This document shows, in pieces, positions 2,963-59,599 of a DNA stretch of 64,000 nt. The notes beneath the pieces are model-generated. The model was not told the origin of the DNA and made no database searches. It worked only from the letters and a program-made list of their open reading frames with translations. Positions within the stretch are counted from its first letter, which is position 1. Each line of letters starts with the position of its first letter. This stretch comes from Buxus sempervirens. Taxonomy: Eukaryota > Streptophyta > Magnoliopsida > Buxales > Buxaceae. The stretch is from NCBI GenBank assembly GCA_947561395.2, contig OX387190.1, positions 11,960,858 through 12,024,857 of the forward strand, given 5' to 3'. The translations under genes were made by a program, and so were the position numbers.

Positions 2963-3470
2963 TGATGGATTCTTGGTTCCACCTCCTCAAGCAAGGCCTC
3001 CTCTGGTGACTCACGGCAGAATTGGATGGAAGATAAAAGAAGACAGGGAAGAGTAGAACAGAGAATATGGAGATAACTGTAAAATTGTATTGATCTGTAG
3101 GAAATAAACGATAACACTAATGGAGGAAGTTCGAGAGTCCTCCTCTCTCCCAATTCAGCTGATACCAATTACATGCCCTTCCTCTCTTCTCTCTCCCCTA
3201 TTTCTATTTGCTCGTCACCCATTCTCTCTAACAAACCTGTCCACCTCACACAAGTCATCATCACCTACTGCTATACTAACTAATTTGTAACTAACACTCA
3301 GAGCCACCTCAGCTTCATTTGGTTATTCTCCAACTCAGCATCACTTCATCTTCACGTGAGTCCTCTCTTGGGCCATGGGGTCTGATCTTTCCACACTTGA
3401 TGTCTTTGCATTTGCCCTCCTTTTGTACGTGAAGAGCACTGGAGGTCTGCTGTCACCTGGTAACACATCA
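2963..3470 (-). repeat. 3' LTR of the chromovirus
   Basis: 508 bp, TG...CA ended, differing from 8048-8555 at two sites I could see: one C/A in the aaac/aaaa run and one G/A in the cttcacgtg/cttcacatg segment. The last 43 codons of the pol frame lie inside it. Confidence 0.96.
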
Positions 3471-6400
3471 TTACTCCCGGCCATTTTAAGCACCTTGTCC
3501 TCAAGGTGGAAATGGGGAAATTGCTGATTAATGGAGTCATACGGTTCCCATGAAGCTTCAAACTCTGGCAAGCCTTTCCACTGTATTAACACCTCTGTGG
3601 ATGGTTGTTGAGGTAGCTGGCCTGGACGTACGCCCAATACCTGTGCTGGTTCCACTCGCCATTCTAACTCGGCAGACATTGTGGGTGGTAGTGGTTGACT
3701 AATTGTAGCTGTTCCCAGGGCTTTTCGGAGCTGGCAAACATGAAAGACCGGGTGGATGTTTGCAGTAGGAGGAAGATCTAGTCTATAAGCAACCTGACCA
3801 ATTCGTTGGCTGATGGTATAGGGTCCGAAATAACGCGGAGACAACTTCTCGTTCACCCTTTTTGCCATAGATTTCTGCCTGTATGGTCTGAGTTTCAGAT
3901 ACACCTGATCTCCCACTTCAAAACTGACATCCCTTCTATGACGGTCAGCCATCTTCTTCATCCGATTTTGAGCGATTGCCAACTGTTCTTTGAGTTCTTC
4001 CAACATCAGATCTCGTTGTTGCAGCTGCTGTTCCACTGAGAAATTTACCGTAGTGGACTGTCCATATCGAATGATCGGTGGTGGTTCTCTTCCATACACG
4101 ATCTGAAAAGGGGTTAACTTGGTGGAAGTATGGAATGAGGTATTATACCAGAATTCCACCCACGGTAACCACTTGATCCACGTACGCGGTTGGGTGCTTG
4201 CAAAACATCGAAGATATGTCTCCAAACATTGGTTGACCACTTCACTTTGTCCATCCGTTTGGGGATGGTAAGCAGTGCTTCGGTGTAATGCGGTTCCCTG
4301 TAGCTTAAACATTTCAGACCAGAATTTGCTCAGGAAAATCTTGTCTCGATCTGAGACGATTGAGCGGGGAAATCCATGAAGTTTAACCACATGCTGAATG
4401 AAGTGTTCAGCTACTGTAGGTGCTGAGAAAGGGTGTTTCAACGGAATGAAGTGGCTGTACTTGCTAAGCCTGTCCACGACCACCAATATAGTGTCGAAAC
4501 CCAATGACTTTGGCAACCCTTCGATGAAATCCATCGTGACATCCTCCCAAACTGAATTTGGCACTGGTAAGGGTTGCAACAAACCTGCTGGAGCCAGTGC
4601 TAAATATTTATTTCTCTGACAAACCTCACACTTGGTCACATATTCCATAACATCCTTCTTCATTCCCATCCAAAAGAGTTCTTTGGATATCCTTTTATAA
4701 GTCTTCAGGAATCCGGCATGTCCTCCTATAGGGCTCCCATGAAATTCTGCCAGTAGCACAGGAATGGATGAAGATCCTTTAGCTATAACGAGGCGGTTCT
4801 GGTAGCGTAATTGTCCTTGGAGTAATGTCCATCCTGGTTTGGTTTGCTGATTGGAGAGTAAAGCAGTCTTGATTTCTGCTAGAGTATTGTCTCGATCAAC
4901 TTCAGCCGCTATTTCTTCCAAATTTAGTATTTGTGGGATCATTAGCAATCCTAACTCCACAGTTGGTGTAACTCGAGACAGGGCATCAGCTACTTTGTTT
5001 TCTCCTCCAGGTTTATAGTGGATTTCAAAACTAAAACCCATGAGTTTGATCAGCCATTTTTGGCAATCTGGGGTAATCACTCGCTGCTCCAAGAGATGCT
5101 TCAGGCTCTTTTGGTCAGTATGGATGATGAAATGTTGACCGAGTAGATAGTGATGCCACTTCTGTACAGCAAAGACGATTGCCATCAACTCCCTTTCATA
5201 AACTGATTTTTGGCGGGCACAAGATGAGAATGCCTGACTAAAAAAAGCAATTGGCCTCTTGTGTTGACTCAAGACTGCCCCTACCCCTACTCCGGATGCA
5301 TCGGTTTCAATCACAAAGACCTCATTGAAGTTAGGGAGAGCCAGTATTGGAACGGACACCATAGCGTCTTTGAGTCGCTGAACGGCTGCTGTGGCTTCCG
5401 GAGTCCAAATAAAAGAATCCTTCCGCAATAACTGAGTAAGGGGAGCTGCTATGTGTCCATACTTTCGCACAAACCGTCTATAATAGCCGGTGAGGCCCAA
5501 GAAACCACGAAGTTCTTTGGGGTTTCTAGGAGTCGGCCACTGCACCATGACCTTGATCTTGTCTGGATCAGCCCGCACTCCTTCAGCAGAAATCAAGTGC
5601 CCAAGGTATTCTAACTGTGTCTGGCCGAACAAACATTTCTTTGAGTTGGCAAATAACTCCTGGCTTTGTAGGATGGAAAGCACCTCCCATAACTGTTGTT
5701 GATGGGCTATCAATGAGGGGCTGTAAATTAGTATATCATCAAAAAAAACAAGAACTGACCTTCGAAGCAGCCCTTTAAATATGGAGTTCATCAAGGCTTG
5801 GAAGGTCGCCGGAGCATTTGTGAGACCAAACGGCATGACCAATAACTCGTAATGTCCTTCGTGTGTGCGAAAAGCTGTTTTCGGAATGTCATCTGCCCGC
5901 ACCCTGATCTGATGATACCCTGACTTCAAATCTAACTTGGAAAAATACTTGGCTCCGTTCAGCTCATCTAATAACTCGTCTATTGCTGGAATTGGAAAAC
6001 GGTCAGGCACCGTCGCTTTATTTAACGCTTTGTAATCCACACAGAAGCGCCAGCTTCCATCCTTCTTCTTAACCAATAGAACGGGGCTAGAAAAAGGGCT
6101 GGAGCTTGGTTGAATCACCCCAGCTGCAAGCATCTCCGCCACTAACCGTTCAATCTCGTTCTTCTGGGCATGAGGGTACCGGTAAGGCCTCACATTGATC
6201 GGCCCTGTTCCTTCCTCCAAATTGATTGCATGGTCTTGTTCTCGAGCCGGAGGTAACCCCTGGGGTCCTTGAAATACATCCTGAAAAGTGTCGACCAATT
6301 CTCGGATTGACTCCGGTATTGCATCTCCCTGAACTTCTACTGTTGGGGTAAGCTCACACCCCCTTCTGTTGCCTCCCTCATGGGTTGTTACTAGTGACCC

Positions 6401-6574
6401 CAGCTCCACTGCCCAGCCTTGACTTCCCTGTCGTAATGTTTTCATCAGCGACTGCAAGGATGCTGGTGTTTTGCTCAAGCTAGGATCTCCCTGTAACAAC
6501 ATATTAGAATTGCCCAACCTGAACTTCATCGTCAGCTTCTGCCAATTGAATTGGATATTGCCCAACGACGCCAA
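3341..6574 (-). CDS. chromovirus pol: RT - RNase H - integrase - chromodomain
   Basis: 1077-residue open frame, in phase with the gag/protease segment upstream; it starts right after an in-frame TGA, so it has no ATG start of its own. RT spans about residues 128-300 with LDLKSGYHQI (D215) and FFDDILIYS (D279-D280). RNase H acidic residues are D424, E461, D487 and D530. Integrase has the H612/H619/C649/C652 zinc site and catalytic D682, D742, E778 with 35-residue D-E spacing. A chromodomain (about 971-1027, with VLIQWKGLPEFEASWEPYD) follows. All catalytic residues appear intact. The frame runs through the polypurine tract and 130 bp into the 3' LTR before stopping at 3341. It would copy and integrate the element's RNA if expressed as a readthrough or revertant product. 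Confidence 0.95.
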   Translation of the reverse strand: MASLGNIQFNWQKLTMKFRLGNSNMLLQGDPSLSKTPASLQSLMKTLRQGSQGWAVELGSLVTTHEGGNRRGCELTPTVEVQGDAIPESIRELVDTFQDVFQGPQGLPPAREQDHAINLEEGTGPINVRPYRYPHAQKNEIERLVAEMLAAGVIQPSSSPFSSPVLLVKKKDGSWRFCVDYKALNKATVPDRFPIPAIDELLDELNGAKYFSKLDLKSGYHQIRVRADDIPKTAFRTHEGHYELLVMPFGLTNAPATFQALMNSIFKGLLRRSVLVFFDDILIYSPSLIAHQQQLWEVLSILQSQELFANSKKCLFGQTQLEYLGHLISAEGVRADPDKIKVMVQWPTPRNPKELRGFLGLTGYYRRFVRKYGHIAAPLTQLLRKDSFIWTPEATAAVQRLKDAMVSVPILALPNFNEVFVIETDASGVGVGAVLSQHKRPIAFFSQAFSSCARQKSVYERELMAIVFAVQKWHHYLLGQHFIIHTDQKSLKHLLEQRVITPDCQKWLIKLMGFSFEIHYKPGGENKVADALSRVTPTVELGLLMIPQILNLEEIAAEVDRDNTLAEIKTALLSNQQTKPGWTLLQGQLRYQNRLVIAKGSSSIPVLLAEFHGSPIGGHAGFLKTYKRISKELFWMGMKKDVMEYVTKCEVCQRNKYLALAPAGLLQPLPVPNSVWEDVTMDFIEGLPKSLGFDTILVVVDRLSKYSHFIPLKHPFSAPTVAEHFIQHVVKLHGFPRSIVSDRDKIFLSKFWSEMFKLQGTALHRSTAYHPQTDGQSEVVNQCLETYLRCFASTQPRTWIKWLPWVEFWYNTSFHTSTKLTPFQIVYGREPPPIIRYGQSTTVNFSVEQQLQQRDLMLEELKEQLAIAQNRMKKMADRHRRDVSFEVGDQVYLKLRPYRQKSMAKRVNEKLSPRYFGPYTISQRIGQVAYRLDLPPTANIHPVFHVCQLRKALGTATISQPLPPTMSAELEWRVEPAQVLGVRPGQLPQQPSTEVLIQWKGLPEFEASWEPYDSINQQFPHFHLEDKVLKMAGSNDVLPGDSRPPVLFTYKRRANAKTSSVERSDPMAQERTHVKMK
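3471..3487 (-). other. polypurine tract of the chromovirus
   Basis: On the minus strand AAAATGGCCGGGAGTAA abuts the first base of the 3' LTR, where a plus-strand primer site is expected. It is read through by the pol frame (residues about 1029-1035). Confidence 0.65.
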
Positions 6575-7678
6575 TCATTGAACGCCCAAAATCAGATCTG
6601 AACTCCCCAATTCAAGAGGGAGATAATCCTCCACCACTGTAAGTGTCTGCAGCGTAACTACTACGGCTTTGCAGATTCCGCACCCTCTCACAGCATTCCC
6701 TGTGCCCATCATCACGCCATAACTGGCCGTTTTTGCGATTGGTAGTTGCAGTTCCTTCACCATCTCCGTAGAGATGAAGTTATGCGTTGCTCCGCTATCA
6801 ATCAACACCACCACTTCTCTCGCTCCCATCAATCCTGTGAGTTTCATAGTTCGTGGTTCAGTTAATCCCACCACCGAGTTGAGAGACAGCTCGATGTGGT
6901 TTACCTGAGTTAACTCCTCTTGTTCCCCCACTATTCCTTCTTCTTCCTCATTGGTTCCTTCTGTTGCATCTTTATTTTCCCCTTCTTCTTCATTCACCGC
7001 CAATACCTGCAACTCCTTGTTGCGGCAGCGGTGCCCAATGTGATACTTCTCATCACATTTAAAGCACAATCCTCGATCGCGCTTATCTTGAAGCTCGGCC
7101 CCTGTTAGGCGCTTGAAAGGTGGTCGGTCCGTCGGGGGGTTGGTCCTCGAGGCTGTGGGAGCGGCTCTGGGTGGAACCCAAGTCATTGCGCGAGTCTCCT
7201 GGCGAAGGGGGTAGGACGCAGCTGTTCGTCCTGGCCGAAGCCTCTCCTTATCTCGGATTTGCCTCAGGAATAGGTTCCGATCTTCGATCCGCTGTGCAAA
7301 ATCCATGATAGCTTGCAAACCCTTGGGATTCGACATCATGAGTTCCGCCTGTATCGTCTCTTCCAATCCGTTAACGAAAACGGCGGCTAAGGTTTCCTCC
7401 TCCAAGTGTTTTAGGGAGAACGATAACACCTCGAAATGCTCTCTGTATGCCGACACTGTCCCTGTTTGCTTGACGGAGAAGAACCTCTGTTGCAGTGATC
7501 CGAGTTGGGTGTCTCTAAATCGCTGAAGGAGTTGGTTCTTGAGGTGAATCCATGTCGCCATTGGTCGCCGCGACTCCTCCCATTGATACCATGATAACGC
7601 GACGCCATTGAAGCACACGCCGGCAGCTTGTATCTTCTCCTTCTCCGACAGTCCGTTGAGACTAAAGTAACGTTTTGC
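6575..7678 (-). CDS. chromovirus gag (C-terminal part), CCHC knuckle and aspartic protease
   Basis: Open between two in-frame stops, in the same frame as the segments on both sides. It begins AKRYFSLNGLSEKEKIQAAG, continues with VALSWYQWEE (Retrotrans_gag), then the zinc knuckle CFKCDEKYHIGHRC (C-X2-C-X4-H-X4-C) and the protease motif VLIDSGATHNFIS. It ends LILGVQ-TGA where relatives carry a tryptophan (TGG), and the next codons continue the family sequence (LASLGNIQ). The stop is therefore best explained as a single G-to-A change inside the protease-RT linker. Programmed stop readthrough is an alternative, but the upstream stop is clearly a lesion, so decay is favoured. Confidence 0.92.
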   Translation of the reverse strand, partial: AKRYFSLNGLSEKEKIQAAGVCFNGVALSWYQWEESRRPMATWIHLKNQLLQRFRDTQLGSLQQRFFSVKQTGTVSAYREHFEVLSFSLKHLEEETLAAVFVNGLEETIQAELMMSNPKGLQAIMDFAQRIEDRNLFLRQIRDKERLRPGRTAASYPLRQETRAMTWVPPRAAPTASRTNPPTDRPPFKRLTGAELQDKRDRGLCFKCDEKYHIGHRCRNKELQVLAVNEEEGENKDATEGTNEEEEGIVGEQEELTQVNHIELSLNSVVGLTEPRTMKLTGLMGAREVVVLIDSGATHNFISTEMVKELQLPIAKTASYGVMMGTGNAVRGCGICKAVVVTLQTLTVVEDYLPLELGSSDLILGVQ

Positions 7679-8047: not shown

Positions 8048-8555
8048 TGATGGATTCTTGGTTCCACCTCCTCAAGCAAGGCCTCCTCTGGTGACTCACG
8101 GCAGAATTGGATGGAAGATAAAAGAAGACAGGGAAGAGTAGAACAGAGAATATGGAGATAACTGTAAAATTGTATTGATCTGTAGGAAATAAAAGATAAC
8201 ACTAATGGAGGAAGTTCGAGAGTCCTCCTCTCTCCCAATTCAGCTGATACCAATTACATGCCCTTCCTCTCTTCTCTCTCCCCTATTTCTATTTGCTCGT
8301 CACCCATTCTCTCTAACAAACCTGTCCACCTCACACAAGTCATCATCACCTACTGCTATACTAACTAATTTGTAACTAACACTCAGAGCCACCTCAGCTT
8401 CATTTGGTTATTCTCCAACTCAGCATCACTTCATCTTCACATGAGTCCTCTCTTGGGCCATGGGGTCTGATCTTTCCACACTTGATGTCTTTGCATTTGC
8501 CCTCCTTTTGTACGTGAAGAGCACTGGAGGTCTGCTGTCACCTGGTAACACATCA
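8048..8555 (-). repeat. 5' LTR of the chromovirus
   Basis: 508 bp, near-identical to 2963-3470, followed by TSD CAATA at 8556-8560. The short open frames inside it (e.g. 8014-8253 minus) are duplicated in the other LTR and are not genes. Confidence 0.96.
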
Positions 8556-46724: not shown

Positions 46725-46985
46725 TTAAAGTATCCCATACAAATATTCAAGGTACCTCTCAAGGGTACTTAAAGTATCTCCTAAGGATACCTAAAGTAAC
46801 TCCTAAGTACCATCCAAGTATACTTAGGGTACACCCAAGTATTAACCAAAGTACCACCAAAGTATACCTAAAGTATTAACCAAAGTACCACCAAAGTATA
46901 CCCAAGTATTATCCAAGGTACCATCAAAGTGTTACTCAAAGTACCCCACAATTATACCTAAGGTACCCCCTTGTATTGCCCAAGG
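46725..46985. repeat. GGTACC minisatellite, left part
   Basis: Irregular copies of (a)aagtaccNccaagtat(t/a) leading into CCCAAGG at 46985, where a solo LTR split the array. Continues at 48791. Confidence 0.85.
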
Positions 46986-47087
46986 TGTAGACACCCCAAA
47001 TTGCACTACAAAATGAGAAAATAATGAAAACATTAATTAGAATTTAAAACAGGCCAAAAATGCATGAAAATGAATAATTTAAGCCTT

Positions 47088-47192
47088 GCCCGTATTATAT
47101 CTATGGGCTAAGCGCGCCCGAATTTTATATACGGGCACGCAGCGCCCTTAATACATATACGGACACCTTTGGATCGTAAATCATTTACGGGC
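47088..47192. repeat. hairpin array of LTR 'A': four units, 28-bp period, 7-nt loops
   Basis: Units start at 47088, 47116, 47144 and 47172, each 7-bp arm, 7-nt loop, 7-bp arm, then 7-nt spacer. Arms: GCCCGTA/TATGGGC, GCCCGAA/TACGGGC, GCCCTTA/TACGGAC, GATCGTA/TACGGGC. The right arm is best conserved. Loops differ (TTATATC, TTTTATA, ATACATA, AATCATT). Confidence 0.9.
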
Positions 47193-47392
47193 ACATTAGA
47201 CTCGTGCGAGTTTTATTCTTCTCTCGATTTCTGAGCCTTATCTTTAATTCAATGTCCCTTTAAATGAGCGAATTATATATTTTATTCGTGCGAAATATCT
47301 TTGTGGATAAAGGATAGGCATTATCTTGTGTTTAACTCAAACTGAAACTCTATCTTGCCAAACCTTGGACCAACCATGCCCCTGGGTTTGCC

Positions 47393-47400
47393 TATAAATA
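47393..47400 (+). promoter_or_regulatory. TATA box of solo LTR 'A'
   Basis: TATAAATA in tgcctataaatagaggg, 200 bp after the hairpin array; same context in LTRs 'C' and 'D'. Confidence 0.8.
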
Positions 47401-48790
47401 GAGGGCCTTTCCTCAAGCAAAAGGCCACAAAAATTTGAAGTCCAAGGAGCTCCAAGAGAAGAAAGGAATCCCTGCTGCTCTGTTTGCTTAATCTAGGTAA
47501 GTCCCTTTTCCCTTTTATTTTCTATCTTTAATTCTAGAAGTAATAAGATCTTATCCATTGCTGTAGAATAAGGCCTCATCTTTTGTACTCGTATTCCTAA
47601 ACTTGTCTCCAAGTACCTCAAGAATCTCTCTAGCCGTAAAACGTGAATAGAGAGCTAGGGGAAAAGAGAACAGGTGGATCCCTAGAATAGAACCCCATAA
47701 TCTATTTTTCTCTTTTTTTATAGAATAAATCCTGTGATTGTGTTTGTATCACCAAACCTATCTCCAAGTACCTCAAGAATCCTCTCTAGTCGTAAAACGT
47801 GAAGAGAGAGCTAGGGGAAAAGAGAACAGGTGGATCCGTAGGGTAGACCCCCATGTGCTCTAATTTGTGAGATGTGGCTGCTTTGAATATCCTGATCATG
47901 TTTTAATGGTTTTTATGTTGAATCTGAATCAATCATATGAATCCATGATGTTTATAGCATGAGATCCCCACTTTTTTCTAAAATTTGGATTTTCACCACT
48001 TTTGCACCTACAGCATTGTTTTCGTGATTTTTGTGATATTAGGCTAGGATCCTGGATTTATCATGATCAATATGATAGATCTGGATTTAGAAGCCTGAAA
48101 ATAACTTCTAGGGTTTCATGATGTTGTTTTTGAATTGTTTTTCACTTTTGAGAGAAGACCCTACGGTCTAAGTTCTCCCCTTTTGATGTTCTTCATCAAT
48201 GTGGGTATTTTTGGTTTTGATTTCTTGATTTAATGTGAAATTTGAGCTATATCTATGACCTGGACTATTCAAGTTCAATTCTGAAATATTTTATAAAAAT
48301 CATATTTTTCTAGATTTCTAGAATTTGACTTGAAGCCAGATTTTTGGATTTTTCACTTTAAATTGATTTTATTTGATTTTATCTCAATTTTATTTTAATC
48401 ATGAAACCCTAGGAATGGTATGATCATATTTGAAAGCTCTGGATCAATCAGGCTATTCGTATGAAAAACCATATATTTTGTCTTTTTTGTGATTTTTCAT
48501 GATTTTTATAGCAAGCATTTTTCCTTTATTTTAACATGAACAATACCTGGCATCCACCTTGTATGGATGAATAGGGGTGCCTAACACCTTTCCTTGTTCA
48601 TAACCTAATCCCCTTACCCATCTCTGGTTTTTTTTAGAGGGTCATTTTTACCCTAAAATTGCCTTTTTGAGCTTATTTAATATTTTGGTGTCCATTCACA
48701 CCTAAACAGAATGGTGGCGACTCTTTGTTTTTATGAATCCCGCGTGATGATTGAGGAAGTCATTGAATTTGATTTTTCCCATGTCTCACA

Positions 48791-49715
48791 CAAGGTACCC
48801 CATATATATACTTAAAGTACTCCCTAATTATACCTAAGGTACCCCCTGTTATTGCCTAAGGTACCCTACTTATATCCCTAAGGTACCCTACTTGTATACC
48901 TAAGGTACTCATCTGTATTGCCTAAGGTACCCCTTTGATTTACCTAAGTTACCCACCTGTATTGCCTAAGGTACCCCACTTATATCCCTAAGGTACTCTA
49001 TTTGTATACCTAAGGTACCCACCTGTATTGCCTAAGGTACCCCACTTATATCCCTAAGGTACTCTATTTGTATACCTAAGGTACCCACCTGTATTGCCTA
49101 AGGTACCCCACTTATATCCCTAAGGTACCCCCTATGTTTGCCTAAGGTATCCCTTTGATTTACCTAAGGTACCCCCTATGTTTGCCTAAGGTATCCCTTT
49201 GATTTACCTAAGGTACCCCCTATGTTTGCCTAAGGTATCCCTTTGATTTACCTAAGATACCCTCTATGTTTGCCTAAGGTACCCCTATGTTTCCCCAAGG
49301 TACCCCCCTGATTTACCCAAGGTACCCCATTGTGTTTGCCTAAGGTACCCCACATGTGTACCTAAAGTACCCCCTAGTATTATTTAAAGGTACTCCCCTC
49401 ATATAACCAAGGTACACCCATTCTATAACTCAGGTACCCCTCTTATATTACTAAGGTACACCCCTCATATTACCTAAAGTACATCTCCTTGTATTACCTA
49501 AAGGTACACCCCTGTATAACTTAGGTACACTTTTCAATAATCAAGATACCCCCTCTTGTATAACTAAGGTACCCCTCAAGTTTACCTAAAGTATAACCCC
49601 TTGAATAACTAAGGCAAATCCCCTTAAAACACCTGGGTACCCTTCAAATAACACTAAGGTACCCTCTGCTTATCACTAAGGTACCCCCATACTTAATACT
49701 AAGGTACCCCAAGGG
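48791..49715. repeat. GGTACC minisatellite, main part (22-bp unit with 44- and 66-bp higher orders)
   Basis: About 40 units of the type ggtacccc-N-tttgcctaa. The 22-bp unit forms a 66-bp order (acctgtattgcctaaggtac at 48955, 49021, 49087) and then a 44-bp order (cctatgtttgcctaaggtat at 49131, 49175, 49219, about 49263). Each unit keeps a KpnI-type GGTACC core or a one-base variant. It becomes irregular after 49380. No open frame. Confidence 0.92.
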
Positions 49716-53662: not shown

Positions 53663-55432
53663 ATCGTTGTGAGACATGGAAAAATCATCGAGATGATTCC
53701 CTCCATCATCACACGGGCTCAACGAAAATGGGAGAGTCGCTACCATCCAATTTTAAGGTGTGAATGGGCACAAAAAATCATCAAAAAGAGCAAAAAGGCA
53801 AATACTAGAGTAAAAATAACCCTACTTGAAAATAAAATCCAGAGATCGGTAAGGGGATTAGATTATGAACGGGGGAAAGTGTTAGGCACCTCTATTCACT
53901 CACACAAGGTGGTTGCCAAGTGTTGTTCACGCTAAAAAAAATGAAAAAGCTTGCTAAAATAATCAAAAACCTTGAAAAAAGATTAAACAAATGTGTGATA
54001 CCTTCACATGAGAAATCCAAATGAATTCCAGATCCTCTTTTATGTCAATATCACTTCTGGGCCATCACCATTAGATGGAAATCAAAGCAAAAATTGCACA
54101 AAACCATGTTGAGTCAAATCCGGAAAATTCGGTAAAAGATAGAGCCATTTGTCTTGAAATCATTCAAATATAGTATAAATTGAATCAAACCAAATCTATT
54201 TGAAAGATTATGATAAATAGAAGACTCATGCAAATTTTCAATCAAATCCGATTAAAATCCTAGGAGTTATTCTCTTTTGAAATTTGCTGCTGGAGATAGT
54301 TAAAAGTGATAAGTGGGCAACTTTGGAAATTCATTTAGAAAAATTGGCTCCATATAAATCCGTGAAATTTGGCATGAATTAATTATGTAGAGTCATCTTT
54401 CAAATGAAACTAGCCTCATACAAAAATTCATCCGGATGTGCCTTGGGTGACCTCCGGAACAGGCCCCGGGGATCACAGATTAACCCAGAAATGTGCTGTT
54501 GAGAAGTTCTGAGTAAATCGGTCACCCATGACACAAATGAAATCAAAAAATTATGAAACCAACTGGGTTTGAAATTAGACTTCCTAAGGAAAACACAGAA
54601 ATAATAATCACTCGAATCGGACTTAAAACGAACACATGGCGCTCAGTCAAAGTGACCGGTTCAACAATCTGGCCTGAACTGACCGACGATGAAGTTACGA
54701 GTGTCTGAAGTTGGGGTACAGCTGCTGTCCAGTTTAAGTCTTTTTAGAGAAAATCAACTCAAAACAGTGATAAGGTGTGTGGAATCCGAGCAATATAAAT
54801 CCAAATCATTTGAAAATCATCGAGAAATGTCCCAGAATTGTTTGAGGCTATTTATTTCAAATCTATCACAATGAATGCAATAGATCCAAAACACAAGCCA
54901 ATTCCGACAAAACAAGTGCAATATATGTGTATGTGTAAAAATCATTTCTTCAATCACAACATATCATCATATGGCATTCATATAAATAAAATGGGGTTCT
55001 AAAAAGACCTAGGGTTCTGTTCCATTCTCGTTTCCCTTAGTTCTCTCTCCCCGTTTTACGGTTCTTCGAGATAATCTTGGGGTACTTTGATTATGAAACG
55101 GTTTTCATAGAATCAAAAAGCCATTCAAAAAAGGGTTCTAACACTAAGGATCAATCCTCAGTCTCGTTTCCCCTAGATCCCGCCTTCACGTTTTATGGCT
55201 AGGGGGAGTCTTGAGGTACTTTGAGTAGAGGAAAGGTTTGCACACACAAAGAGTAGGCCTTATTCTACAGAAAGGTAGAAGAAAAGAACTAACTCTAGAA
55301 TGTAAAGACAGAAAAATAAAGAGGGGTTTAGGCTTACTTGGGTGTCTGGAAGCAATGCGGCAGCGGTTCCCTTCTTCACTCGGAGCTCTTCAATCTCCAA
55401 CTTATTGGCCATTTGCTTAAGGAGGAGTCTCC

Positions 55433-55440
55433 TATTTATA
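55433..55440 (-). promoter_or_regulatory. TATA box of solo LTR 'C'
   Basis: Minus-strand TATAAATA in tgcctataaataggag, about 170 bp downstream of the hairpin array in LTR orientation. Confidence 0.75.
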
Positions 55441-55607
55441 GGCAAAGGCTAGGGTTAGGGTTTGCATGATGGTAGACACAAAATGATGTTTAGAGTCCAC
55501 CAACCTTAACCCTAAGGCTATTTCCGAGATTTCCACTCCTTTAATGAAGGATATAATGGTAAAAAGTGAAAACTCTCGGAAAACCCTAATTTTGAGCAAA
55601 AAGCTTG

Positions 55608-55747
55608 TATCTGACATATCAGGTCGGATATAAGAGCATATATATGTATCCGACATATGTCGTCAGATACATTAATGCCTGCTTGTATCCGACAACTTCT
55701 GTCAAATATAAAAGGATATGCTTGTATCCGACCTAAGTTGTCGGATA
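55608..55747. repeat. hairpin array of LTR 'C': four units, 39-bp period, 7-nt loops
   Basis: Units start at 55608, 55647, 55686 and 55725 exactly 39 bp apart: 8-bp arm, 7-nt loop, 8-bp arm, 16-nt spacer. Arms: TATCTGAC/GTCGGATA, TATCCGAC/GTCAGATA, TATCCGAC/GTCAAATA, TATCCGAC/GTCGGATA. Loops: ATATCAG, ATATGTC, AACTTCT, CTAAGTT. The left arm is best conserved on the plus strand. Confidence 0.9.
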
Positions 55748-55842
55748 TAAGAAAAAATGCTTATTTCTCAAATTTTGCGCAAGTTTCAAAGGAAAGAAAG
55801 ATTTTTGCCAATTATTGTGCAATTTGGGGTGTCTACAATAGT

Positions 55843-57739: not shown

Positions 57740-57889
57740 TAGAGCTGGCAAAAAGCGAACCGACCCGACGGGTTAACCCGACCAACCCGATTATAAACGG
57801 GTTGGGTTGACCCGTTTATTAATTGGGTTGGGTACGAGTTGAGGTTTTCCCAATCCGTCCAAAATCGGGTCAACCCGATTACAACCCGT
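57740..57889 (+). mobile_element. left end of a hAT-like element split by solo LTR 'D'
   Basis: TAGAGCTGGCAAAAAGCG followed by ACCCGACGGG / CGGGTTG motifs parallels the hAT element at 40813. The sequence resumes at 59555 (cccgtcaacccgacgggtta) but no matching right terminus (TTGCCAGCTCTA-like) was found by 59700, so it is partial. Confidence 0.6.
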
Positions 57890-57992
57890 TGTAGACACCC
57901 CAAATTGCACTAAAAATGAGAAAATAATTGAAAATATTAATTGGGATTTGAAACAGGTCAAAAAAGTGTAAAATCTGGCCAAACTGGTCATG

Positions 57993-58097
57993 ACCGTATT
58001 TTGTTCACGGTCTGGTCATACCTGCAGTTGATATACGGTCACGGCGTGCCCGTATTAATAATACGGGCAGGGCGCGACCGTAATATATATACGGGCA
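57993..58097. repeat. hairpin array of LTR 'D': four units, 28-bp period, 7-nt loops
   Basis: Units start at 57993, 58021, 58049 and 58077. Arms: GACCGTA/CACGGTC, ACCTGCA/TACGGTC (weak), GCCCGTA/TACGGGC (perfect), GACCGTA/TACGGGC. Loops TTTTGTT, GTTGATA, TTAATAA, ATATATA. Stem position 2/20 is C-G in most units but A-T in unit 1, a paired change relative to LTR 'A'. Confidence 0.9.
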
Positions 58098-58316
58098 CGG
58101 GGGTCTTTGTGCGAATTTTACCTTTTTGATTTTTTAGCCTTATCTGCACCCAAATATCTCTCTTGGATAAGCGAATCCTCTTATTTATCCATTCGAATTA
58201 TCTCATTTATCCTTGTGGATAAAGGATTGACATAATCTTGTGTTTAACTCAAACTGAAACTCTATCCTGCCAAACCTTCTGGACCAACCTTGCCCCTGGG
58301 TGTGTCTATAAATAGA

Positions 58317-58324
58317 GGCTCTCT
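58317..58324 (+). promoter_or_regulatory. TATA box of solo LTR 'D'
   Basis: TATAAATA in gtgtctataaatagaggc, 220 bp after the hairpin array. Confidence 0.8.
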
Positions 58325-59599
58325 CCTCTAGCTAAGGGCCACGAAATTTTGAAGTCAAGGAATTCTAAGAAGCTCCAAGAGAAGAGAAAGGAACTCCTGC
58401 TGCTCTGCCTGCTCAATCCAGGTAAGTCCCCTATCCCTTTTTATTTTCTGTCTTCAATTCTAGAAGTAATAGGATCATCTCTATTGCAGTAGAATAAGGC
58501 CATATCTGTTTTTGTATTCCTAAACTTGTCTCCAAGTACCTCAAGGGTCTCTCTAGCCGTAAAACGTGAAGAGAGAACTAGGGGAAAGGGGAACAGGTGG
58601 ATCCGTAGGGTAGACCCCCATGTGCTCTAATTTGTGAGATGTGGCTGTTTTGAATATCCTGATCATGTTTTAATGCTTTTTATGATGAATCTGAATGAAT
58701 AACATGAATCTATGATGTTTATAGCATGAGATCCCCACTTTTTGATAAAATTTGGATTTTTGCCACTTTTGCACCTACAGCACTGTTTTCGTGATTTTTG
58801 TGGTTTTAGGCTAAGATCTTGGATCTATCATGATCAATATGGTAGATCTGAATCCAGAAGCCTAAAAATAAATTCTAGGGTTTCATGAGATGTTTTTTTT
58901 AAATTGTTTTTCATTATTGAGATAAGACCCTACGGTCTCAGTTCTCCCCTTTTGGTGTTTTTCATCAACGTGGGTATTTTTGGTTTTTATTTCCTGATTT
59001 AACGTGAAATTTGGGCTTTATCTATATCCTGGACTGTTCAAGTTCAATTTTGAAATATTTTACAAAAATCATATTTTTCTGGATTTCTAGAATTTTGACT
59101 TGAAGCCAGATTTTGGATTTTTCACTTTAAATTGATTTTATCTTAATTTTGTTTTGATCATGAAACCCTATGAATGGTATGATCATGTTTGATAGTTCTG
59201 GATCAATCAGACTATTCATATGAAAAAACCATATATTTTGTCTTTTTTGTGATTTTGTGTGGTTTTTATAGCAAGCTTTTTCCTTTACTTTAAACATGAA
59301 CAATGCCTGGCAACCACCTTGTGTGGATGAATAGGGGTGCCTAACACCTTCCCCTGTTCATAACTTAATCCCCTTACCCATCTCTGGTTGTTTTTCTTAG
59401 GAGGGATATTTTGCCCTAAAATTTGCCTTTTGTGCTTATTTAATATTTTGGTGTCCATTCACACCTAAATTGAATGGTGGCGACTCTTTGTTTAATTTAA
59501 TCCCGTGTGATGATTGGAGGAAGTCATTAGATTGATTTTTTCCCATGTCTCACACCCGTCAACCCGACGGGTTACCCGATTACAATTTTTTCAAAATTT

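Follow-up and report, generated by a model that had tools for sequence, protein, structure and literature searches.

What is the row of four short inverted repeats that stands upstream of the TATA box in a long terminal repeat (LTR) of this plant genome, and what has kept each of them symmetrical? The original prediction described it as a CRISPR-like array of hairpins, which could work either as DNA, in the form of sites for a dimeric factor, or as RNA stem-loops. The regular spacing is real, but the likeness to CRISPR goes no further. A CRISPR array was rejected, since the repeat resides in retrotransposon LTRs of a 676-Mb genome.

The array in the window

In the window, that is, the whole stretch of 64,000 nucleotides analysed here, which is part of contig C12 in a 676.5-Mb genome, three LTR copies of one superfamily carry such arrays (Table 1). 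The four units of copy 1, each composed of a 7-nt arm, a 7-nt loop and a second 7-nt arm, with 7-nt spacers and a start-to-start distance of 28, were found exactly where they had been predicted. Unit 1 begins 102 bp into the LTR, the TATA box lies 201 bp past the array, and the arms are indeed mostly complementary, with 22 of 28 positions forming Watson-Crick pairs. Copy 1 is a solo LTR, because its 5-bp target duplication (CAAGG, at 46981-46985 and 48791-48795) abuts the LTR on both sides. The array sits in U3, and the U3/R boundary is expected shortly downstream of the TATA box, whose sequence TATAAATAG was found in all three LTR copies of the window.

Then, could such an array occur by chance? 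In a pairing test corrected for scanning, which looks for the four regular units that pair best, with arms of 7, loops of 3-12 and a period below 56, the score of copy 1 was matched by 4 of 1000 dinucleotide shuffles of its own U3. The scores of copies 2 and 3 were matched by 2 and 0 of 1000 shuffles, respectively. The pairing score alone is only modest evidence, because a score of 22 or 23 was also reached in 14 of 636 overlapping 415-bp blocks from four window areas outside the three LTR arrays. The array is nevertheless secure, because comparable arrays recur in related, differently lettered families.

Table 1. LTR copies of the window, their dyad units and the TATA box of copy 1.
Feature	Position	Strand	Description
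LTR copy 1, family A, solo LTR	46986..48790	+	1,805 bp; TG...CA ends; TGTAGACACC...TGTCTCACA
Copy 1 dyad unit 1	47088..47108	+	GCCCGTA-N7-TATGGGC
Copy 1 dyad unit 2	47116..47136	+	GCCCGAA-N7-TACGGGC
Copy 1 dyad unit 3	47144..47164	+	GCCCTTA-N7-TACGGAC
Copy 1 dyad unit 4	47172..47192	+	GATCGTA-N7-TACGGGC
Copy 1 TATA box	47393..47401	+	TATAAATAG; read from the sequence
LTR copy 2, family A, solo LTR	57890..59554	+	target duplication CCCGT at 57885-57889 and 59555-59559
Copy 2 four-unit array	57992..58096	+	period 28; arms similar to those of copy 1
LTR copy 3, family B, solo LTR	53668..55837	-	target duplication ACTAT/ACGAT (4/5)
Copy 3 four-unit array	55607..55748	-	arms TATCCGAC / GTCGGATA, loop 7, period 39
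Copy 3 units, 25 nt each	55748-55724, 55709-55685, 55670-55646, 55631-55607	-

Some other repeats were observed nearby. The insertion site of copy 1 is a minisatellite-like field (46761-46985 and 48791-49710; 11-113-bp units, rich in AAGGTACC), which also shows as self-matches of the window. Downstream of the TATA box, copy 1 contains a 117-bp direct repeat (47583-47698 and 47738-47854), hairpin-like by eye around CCGTAAAACGTGAA; copy 2 has a single occurrence of it, and copy 3 has diverged ones. On the minus strand at 3341-7678, two adjoining long ORFs of 1,077 and 367 aa, in which reverse transcriptase and integrase were recognized by eye, are flanked by 508-bp stretches (2963-3470 and 8048-8555) that are 99.6% alike; this is probably a young Ty3/gypsy insertion.

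Copies in the genome and the host element

The 20-mer that opens the LTR is present 9,063 times (4,575 + 4,488) in the 676.5-Mb genome, in which the reversed 20-base control has 0 occurrences. The same 20-mer has 0 matches in the viral contigs, and an Rfam scan of window positions 46900-48900 gave only two weak matches, below the gathering score. We took 98 loci, including 94 of 100 LTR-start places among the matches listed. We excluded L003 and L004, whose exact start was missing, and included the three window copies, which gave 99 U3s in 53 clusters at 96% identity. A further 21 U3s were added, with L104, L118, L121 and L123 lacking a usable start. The resulting 120 sequences represent 119 copies (L001 is window copy 1, the same copy in two entries), with 54 sequences in family A, 54 in B and 12 in C. 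These proportions are not genome-wide, because the sample comes mostly from the first 9.5 Mb of C1 and from close relatives of copy 1 in one genome; family C and the old lineages are thinly sampled. An array comparable to that of copy 1 is present in most of the 119 copies from this one plant genome.

Two arrangements of the copies may be mentioned. Eight same-strand LTR starts at C1:8464678-8571932 are about 15.32 kb apart, as if an element-bearing unit had been amplified in tandem. In L036 and L037 (C1:6365152 and 6367039), family B LTR starts lie 1.9 kb apart in the same orientation, and their flanking U3 is identical, as if two LTRs were abutting.

Which retrotransposon carries the LTR? 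Full elements are probably enclosed by those LTR pairs that lie 9.5-21 kb apart and have near-identical U3s. Gag (PF03732) is encoded in pieces of two elements between LTR pairs, and the piece between a third pair encodes, in Ty3/gypsy order, the end of the reverse transcriptase, RNaseH, a second RNaseH-like domain (RVT_3) and integrase, although this domain order comes from one stretch, which may belong to a nested insertion rather than to the outer element. In two elements, the primer-binding-site-like ACTGGCGACTCTGCTGGGGAC follows the 5' LTR. The coding content thus fits a Ty3/gypsy host element of Tat/Ogre-like type, with hallmarks that we take to be those of Tat/Ogre. A Ty1/copia Sirevirus was ruled out as host by the position of reverse transcriptase and RNaseH before integrase and by the second RNase H-like domain, both in that one stretch. 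In addition, an antisense ORF encoding a plant mobile domain (PF10536) and DUF7745 was observed downstream of pol, between family B LTRs (L110:4505-5419, minus strand).

One dyad geometry in three families

In family A, the arms read GNCCGTA-N7-TACGGNC (51 sequences parsed), and the units follow each other at 28 in 141 of 153 intervals, at 27 in 11 and at 29 in 1 (parser range 27-29). Family B has the arms GTATCCGRN-N7-NYCGGATAC, with four units in 50 of 54 copies and an interval of 39 in 148 of 158 cases, a count that included six family A copies. For the 12 copies of family C, the arms are RACCGYA-N7-TRCGGTY and the spacing is irregular (38, 23, then farther); ten of them hold 1 to 4 letter-perfect CCG-N11-CGG dyads each, with four in L106 and L107. 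L119 and L122 belong to family A, L082 is A-like with four units and the arms GACCGCA/TGCGGTC, and L033 is an old B-like copy with four units. Deviant unit numbers also occur, namely three (L054, L058, L084), five (L041), and few to none recognisable (L048, L069, L097).

What the three families have in common is the CCG-N11-CGG dyad, usually in four units, and not the period. Among CCG...CGG distances of 0-40 nt, N11 is the commonest in each family, with 71 cases in A (24 cluster representatives), 45 in B (19) and 21 in C (10). The next peaks, at 39 in A (47 cases) and, in B, at 37 (41 cases) and 24 (19 cases), correspond in our reading to unit-to-unit distances, and the CGG...CCG distances vary between the families. 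The fixed period claimed at first is not kept, being 28, 39, or 38/23/irregular. The argument that a tandem repeat decaying neutrally should lose its symmetry holds insofar as this is not a plain decaying tandem repeat, with symmetry and core-to-core distance kept across families. The period had also been taken for a helical repeat, but at 10.5 bp per turn a period of 28 bp makes 2.67 turns and one of 39 bp makes 3.71, and the 38 and 23 of family C do not fit either; helical phasing was rejected. The difference between 39 and 28 is 11 bp, about one helical turn.

The two half-sites of family A are similar, G(C/A)CCGTA, except at arm position 8, where T is found in 111 of 160 left arms and 148 of 160 right arms. 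Position 8 aside, a similar half-site preference in both arms is thus combined with a fixed dyad distance, as in a site for a dimer. Of two site types compared, NAC/VOZ proteins recognize CGT-N7-ACG and ARF proteins TGTCGG-N7-CCGACA. Neither was retained: the array has CGT-N9-ACG, CGT is not the common core, and the ARF site has the opposite orientation to the array dyads. A literature search on a candidate factor for CCG-N11-CGG gave no lead, and we know of no factor for this dyad.

Is the common core also under constraint? Divergence was counted in MAFFT alignments labelled from one reference copy, over 974 pairs in A (under 88% identity) and 749 pairs in B, with the columns treated as independent and no unit-finding by core. 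The 24 CCG/CGG columns diverge by 0.114 in A (53 copies) and 0.102 in B (54 copies). The other arm columns reach 0.243 in A and 0.259 in B, the loops 0.454 and 0.422, and the spacers 0.443 and 0.474, while the flanks lie at 0.19-0.33. Random sets with an equal number of other columns were as conserved as the core in 0 of 10,000 draws for A and 1 of 10,000 for B. That the core is lowest within the array, and loops and spacers highest, was also seen in two other divergence runs with slightly different grouping. CG in methylated plant DNA is expected to mutate fast; the slowness of the core is telling because each core carries such a CG.

DNA half-sites or RNA stem-loops

The array could instead act in the genomic RNA, as stem-loops in U3 of the 3' LTR, at the 3' end, with a part in stability, packaging or as a source of small RNA. 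We consider this rather improbable, although on both strands the three window arrays form more stable folds than their shuffles do (z from -3.0 to -8.6), and small RNAs are over-represented at the Sirevirus palindrome clusters of maize (PMC10760457). Each window copy prefers its own set of long pairings across units, and four separate hairpins are less stable by about 28-31 kcal/mol on average. The four-hairpin fold was dominant in none of the 23 A and 15 B copies folded, and the mean in-unit pair probability of the core exceeded 0.5 in none of them on either strand; four-hairpin RNA as the favoured state was rejected accordingly. Nor is there wobble tolerance, because G-U pairs are not above A-C mismatches in either family. 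For B, with 33 distinct arm sets compared at arm positions 5-9, the numbers are 26 G-U and 29 A-C; for A, with 40 distinct sets compared at positions 3-9, they are 43 and 71. These counts take in both inherited and post-insertion changes.

Paired changes give a divided answer. In this test, as in the wobble and concert tests, units were found by the core or by core-holding 7-mers. The original prediction would be contradicted by arms that show no excess of paired changes, and this is the case in family A, where 904 of 1,120 in-unit positions pair. Shuffling the units within copies gives a mean of 909, and 1,682 of 2,000 such shuffles reach 904 or more. The arms of family A are therefore one kind of half-site, since they pair within a unit no better than across units. 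Against shuffles across copies the figure is 904 versus 886, with 0 of 2,000 as high, in a statistic that ignores relatedness. A small excess, which speaks for paired arms, is found in 17 older family B copies, where the inner-arm pairs number 116 of 136 against 107 for within-copy shuffles (0 of 5,000 as high) and 73 for across-copy shuffles. All 33 B arm sets give 217 of 264 versus 195.6, a figure inflated because the recent GA-arm copies have a palindromic left arm.

Thus, of the two functions first put forward, the sites for a dimeric factor fare better than the RNA stem-loops, which folding and G-U counts disfavour. Folding, wobble, pair specificity and the concerted arm letters described below together favour an array of putative DNA half-sites.

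Concerted arms and inverted loops

Among the 17 older copies of family B, two units of one copy agree in the inner arm dinucleotide in 256 of 408 comparisons (0.63), whereas the same site in two copies agrees in 346 of 1088 (0.32). For the loops the relation is reversed, with an identity of 0.35 within a copy and 0.73 at the same site across copies. Over 34 distinct B arm sets, the corresponding values are 0.50 versus 0.38 for the inner letters and 0.35 versus 0.71 for the loops. The concert is partial: the same inner pair is present in all four units of 3 of the 17 copies, in three units of 8 and in two units of 6. Whole-unit copying would not give this pattern, because the arms change together while each loop retains the letters typical of its place. 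Conversion between arms, rather than selection, could have produced the concert.

The loop letters are not free, as had been supposed, but unit-specific and sometimes inverted. Among 49 family B copies examined, the N11 of unit 1, GATACTCAATC in 16 copies, is replaced by its exact reverse complement in 7 copies (11/11), that of unit 3, GTACCATGTAC in 28 copies, by its exact reverse complement in 2 copies (11/11), and that of unit 2 is inverted with two differences (9/11) in 2 copies. By position, the 7 inverted unit-1 copies probably represent four elements, and the 2 + 2 copies inverted at units 3 and 2 are probably one element each or neighbours. The family C copy L034 has a unit 3 that exactly reverse-complements the unit 2/4 type, and in other copies of this family unit 3 resembles that type in inverted form; family A yielded one weak candidate (10/11 inverted versus 9/11 direct). 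Beside the unit-1 inversion of family B, GATACTCAGGC differs from GATACTCAATC by two bases, a difference that extends the arm pairing. Inversions at different units are separate events. On a tree of the flanking U3, the unit-1 inversion takes 4 changes by parsimony, of which the well-supported branches force only 1, so that it may be recurrent.

Do these flips mean that the array has no function at all? Template switching in hairpins, as described for RNA genes, inverts loops at constant length and repairs stem pairing (PMC8794818), and the loop-inversion pattern of the array matches such footprints (PMC8794818; PMC7954356). The loop flips at constant length and the putative stem repair are the same here. 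The setting differs, in that the hairpins described lie in RNA genes (PMC8794818) and ours are LTR dyads, for which reverse transcription is an added opportunity. The array might be a functionless palindromic tandem repeat, kept symmetric by hairpin template switching during reverse transcription or replication. The loop inversions and the arm-lengthening two-base difference, being footprints of that type (PMC8794818), speak for it, as do the 4 parsimony changes at unit 1, though only 1 is forced. However, it leaves unexplained why CCG/CGG is the slowest part in spite of its CpG, why the 11-nt CCG/CGG distance recurs in three families with different outer arms, and why family A shows no unit-specific pairing. 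We regard this explanation as unlikely. A loop flip would be invisible to a dimer that reads only the arms, because the dyad arms survive it.

Putative function of the array

With a common dyad geometry, a constrained core, similar half-sites and inner arms that vary in concert without the loops, the U3 array may best be read as cis-regulatory DNA, made of inverted-repeat sites for a putative dimeric DNA-binding protein. From sequence comparison we give this reading a probability of about 0.6. The four inverted-repeat sites upstream of the TATA box would offer eight half-sites in alternating orientation, recognized by CCG-N11-CGG together with flanking letters specific to each family. The dimer, whose existence and host origin we infer, would probably be a host transcription factor, and its binding would activate transcription of the LTR. 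Secondarily, and as the flips in part show, the dyads may sometimes form hairpins during DNA or cDNA synthesis, where a template switch would flip the loop and could re-symmetrise the arms. A single factor would have to be tolerant or to have been replaced, because outer and inner letters differ between families.

A more tentative, and on balance unlikely, extension is that the dyad array shifts its half-site letters in concert so as to follow host factors, driven by hairpin-templated copying. Template switches in each dyad would then restore arm symmetry and flip loops, and selection would need to fix only one half-site change, because a template switch would spread it to the partner arm.

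Finally, the array might serve chromatin, either with CCG/CGG as targets of methylation and silencing or with anti-silencing sites for an element-encoded protein. Every core holds a CG and a CHG site, the antisense ORF with the plant mobile domain stands between two family B LTRs, and Sirevirus boxes with CGG-CCG cores form CpG islands (PMC2829016). Methylation targeting, however, needs no fixed 11-nt dyad, and we hold this to be very improbable.

If the array is read as binding sites, the CCG-N11-CGG geometry would be a ready bait for the factor driving a large Ty3/gypsy family, and the sites may form a large reservoir of promoter-type DNA, because at least 9,063 LTR starts are present in one genome. 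Of greatest interest are the flipped loops and the arm letters that change in concert: the inversions are a naturally preserved trace of template switching in the hairpins of nuclear retroelements, and concerted arms beside unconcerted loops allow binding-site selection to be separated from hairpin repair.

Comparison with known systems

Tnt1, a Ty1/copia element of tobacco, carries tandem activator repeats in U3 (the BII box), and its U3 differs between subfamilies. Tandem regulatory motifs in a subfamily-specific U3 are shared with the array, whereas the letters are unrelated and are not known to form dyads of the array geometry. Among the titles and abstract beginnings of the literature matches listed, no such arrays appeared for Tat/Ogre LTRs. 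In maize Sirevirus, the palindromes CACCGGAC-N3-GTCCGGTG of the cis-region are linked to small RNAs and resemble the array in being clustered in the LTR cis-region with strong predicted structure, but have a shorter loop and another core geometry (PMC10760457).

The nearest known relative is the RM box of Sirevirus. These boxes, palindromic and numerous, are reported to lie upstream of the TATA box in the upper LTR half, with a CGG/CCG core in 12 of 13 elements and with other letters and spacing that vary by element, and they were likened to sites of stress-related factors (PMC2829016). Both systems are therefore palindromic, repeated and upstream of a TATA box (here, in the three window copies). 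According to the same source, the RM boxes belong to Ty1/copia elements, have CGG, a short spacer and CCG at variable spacing, and number at least 8 per element; ours are found in a Ty3/gypsy, Tat/Ogre-like element and have CCG-N11-CGG, with an inner distance of 11 in A, B and C and usually four units. Palindromic box arrays in LTRs are thus already known, and their CCG-N11-CGG variant appears to be new.
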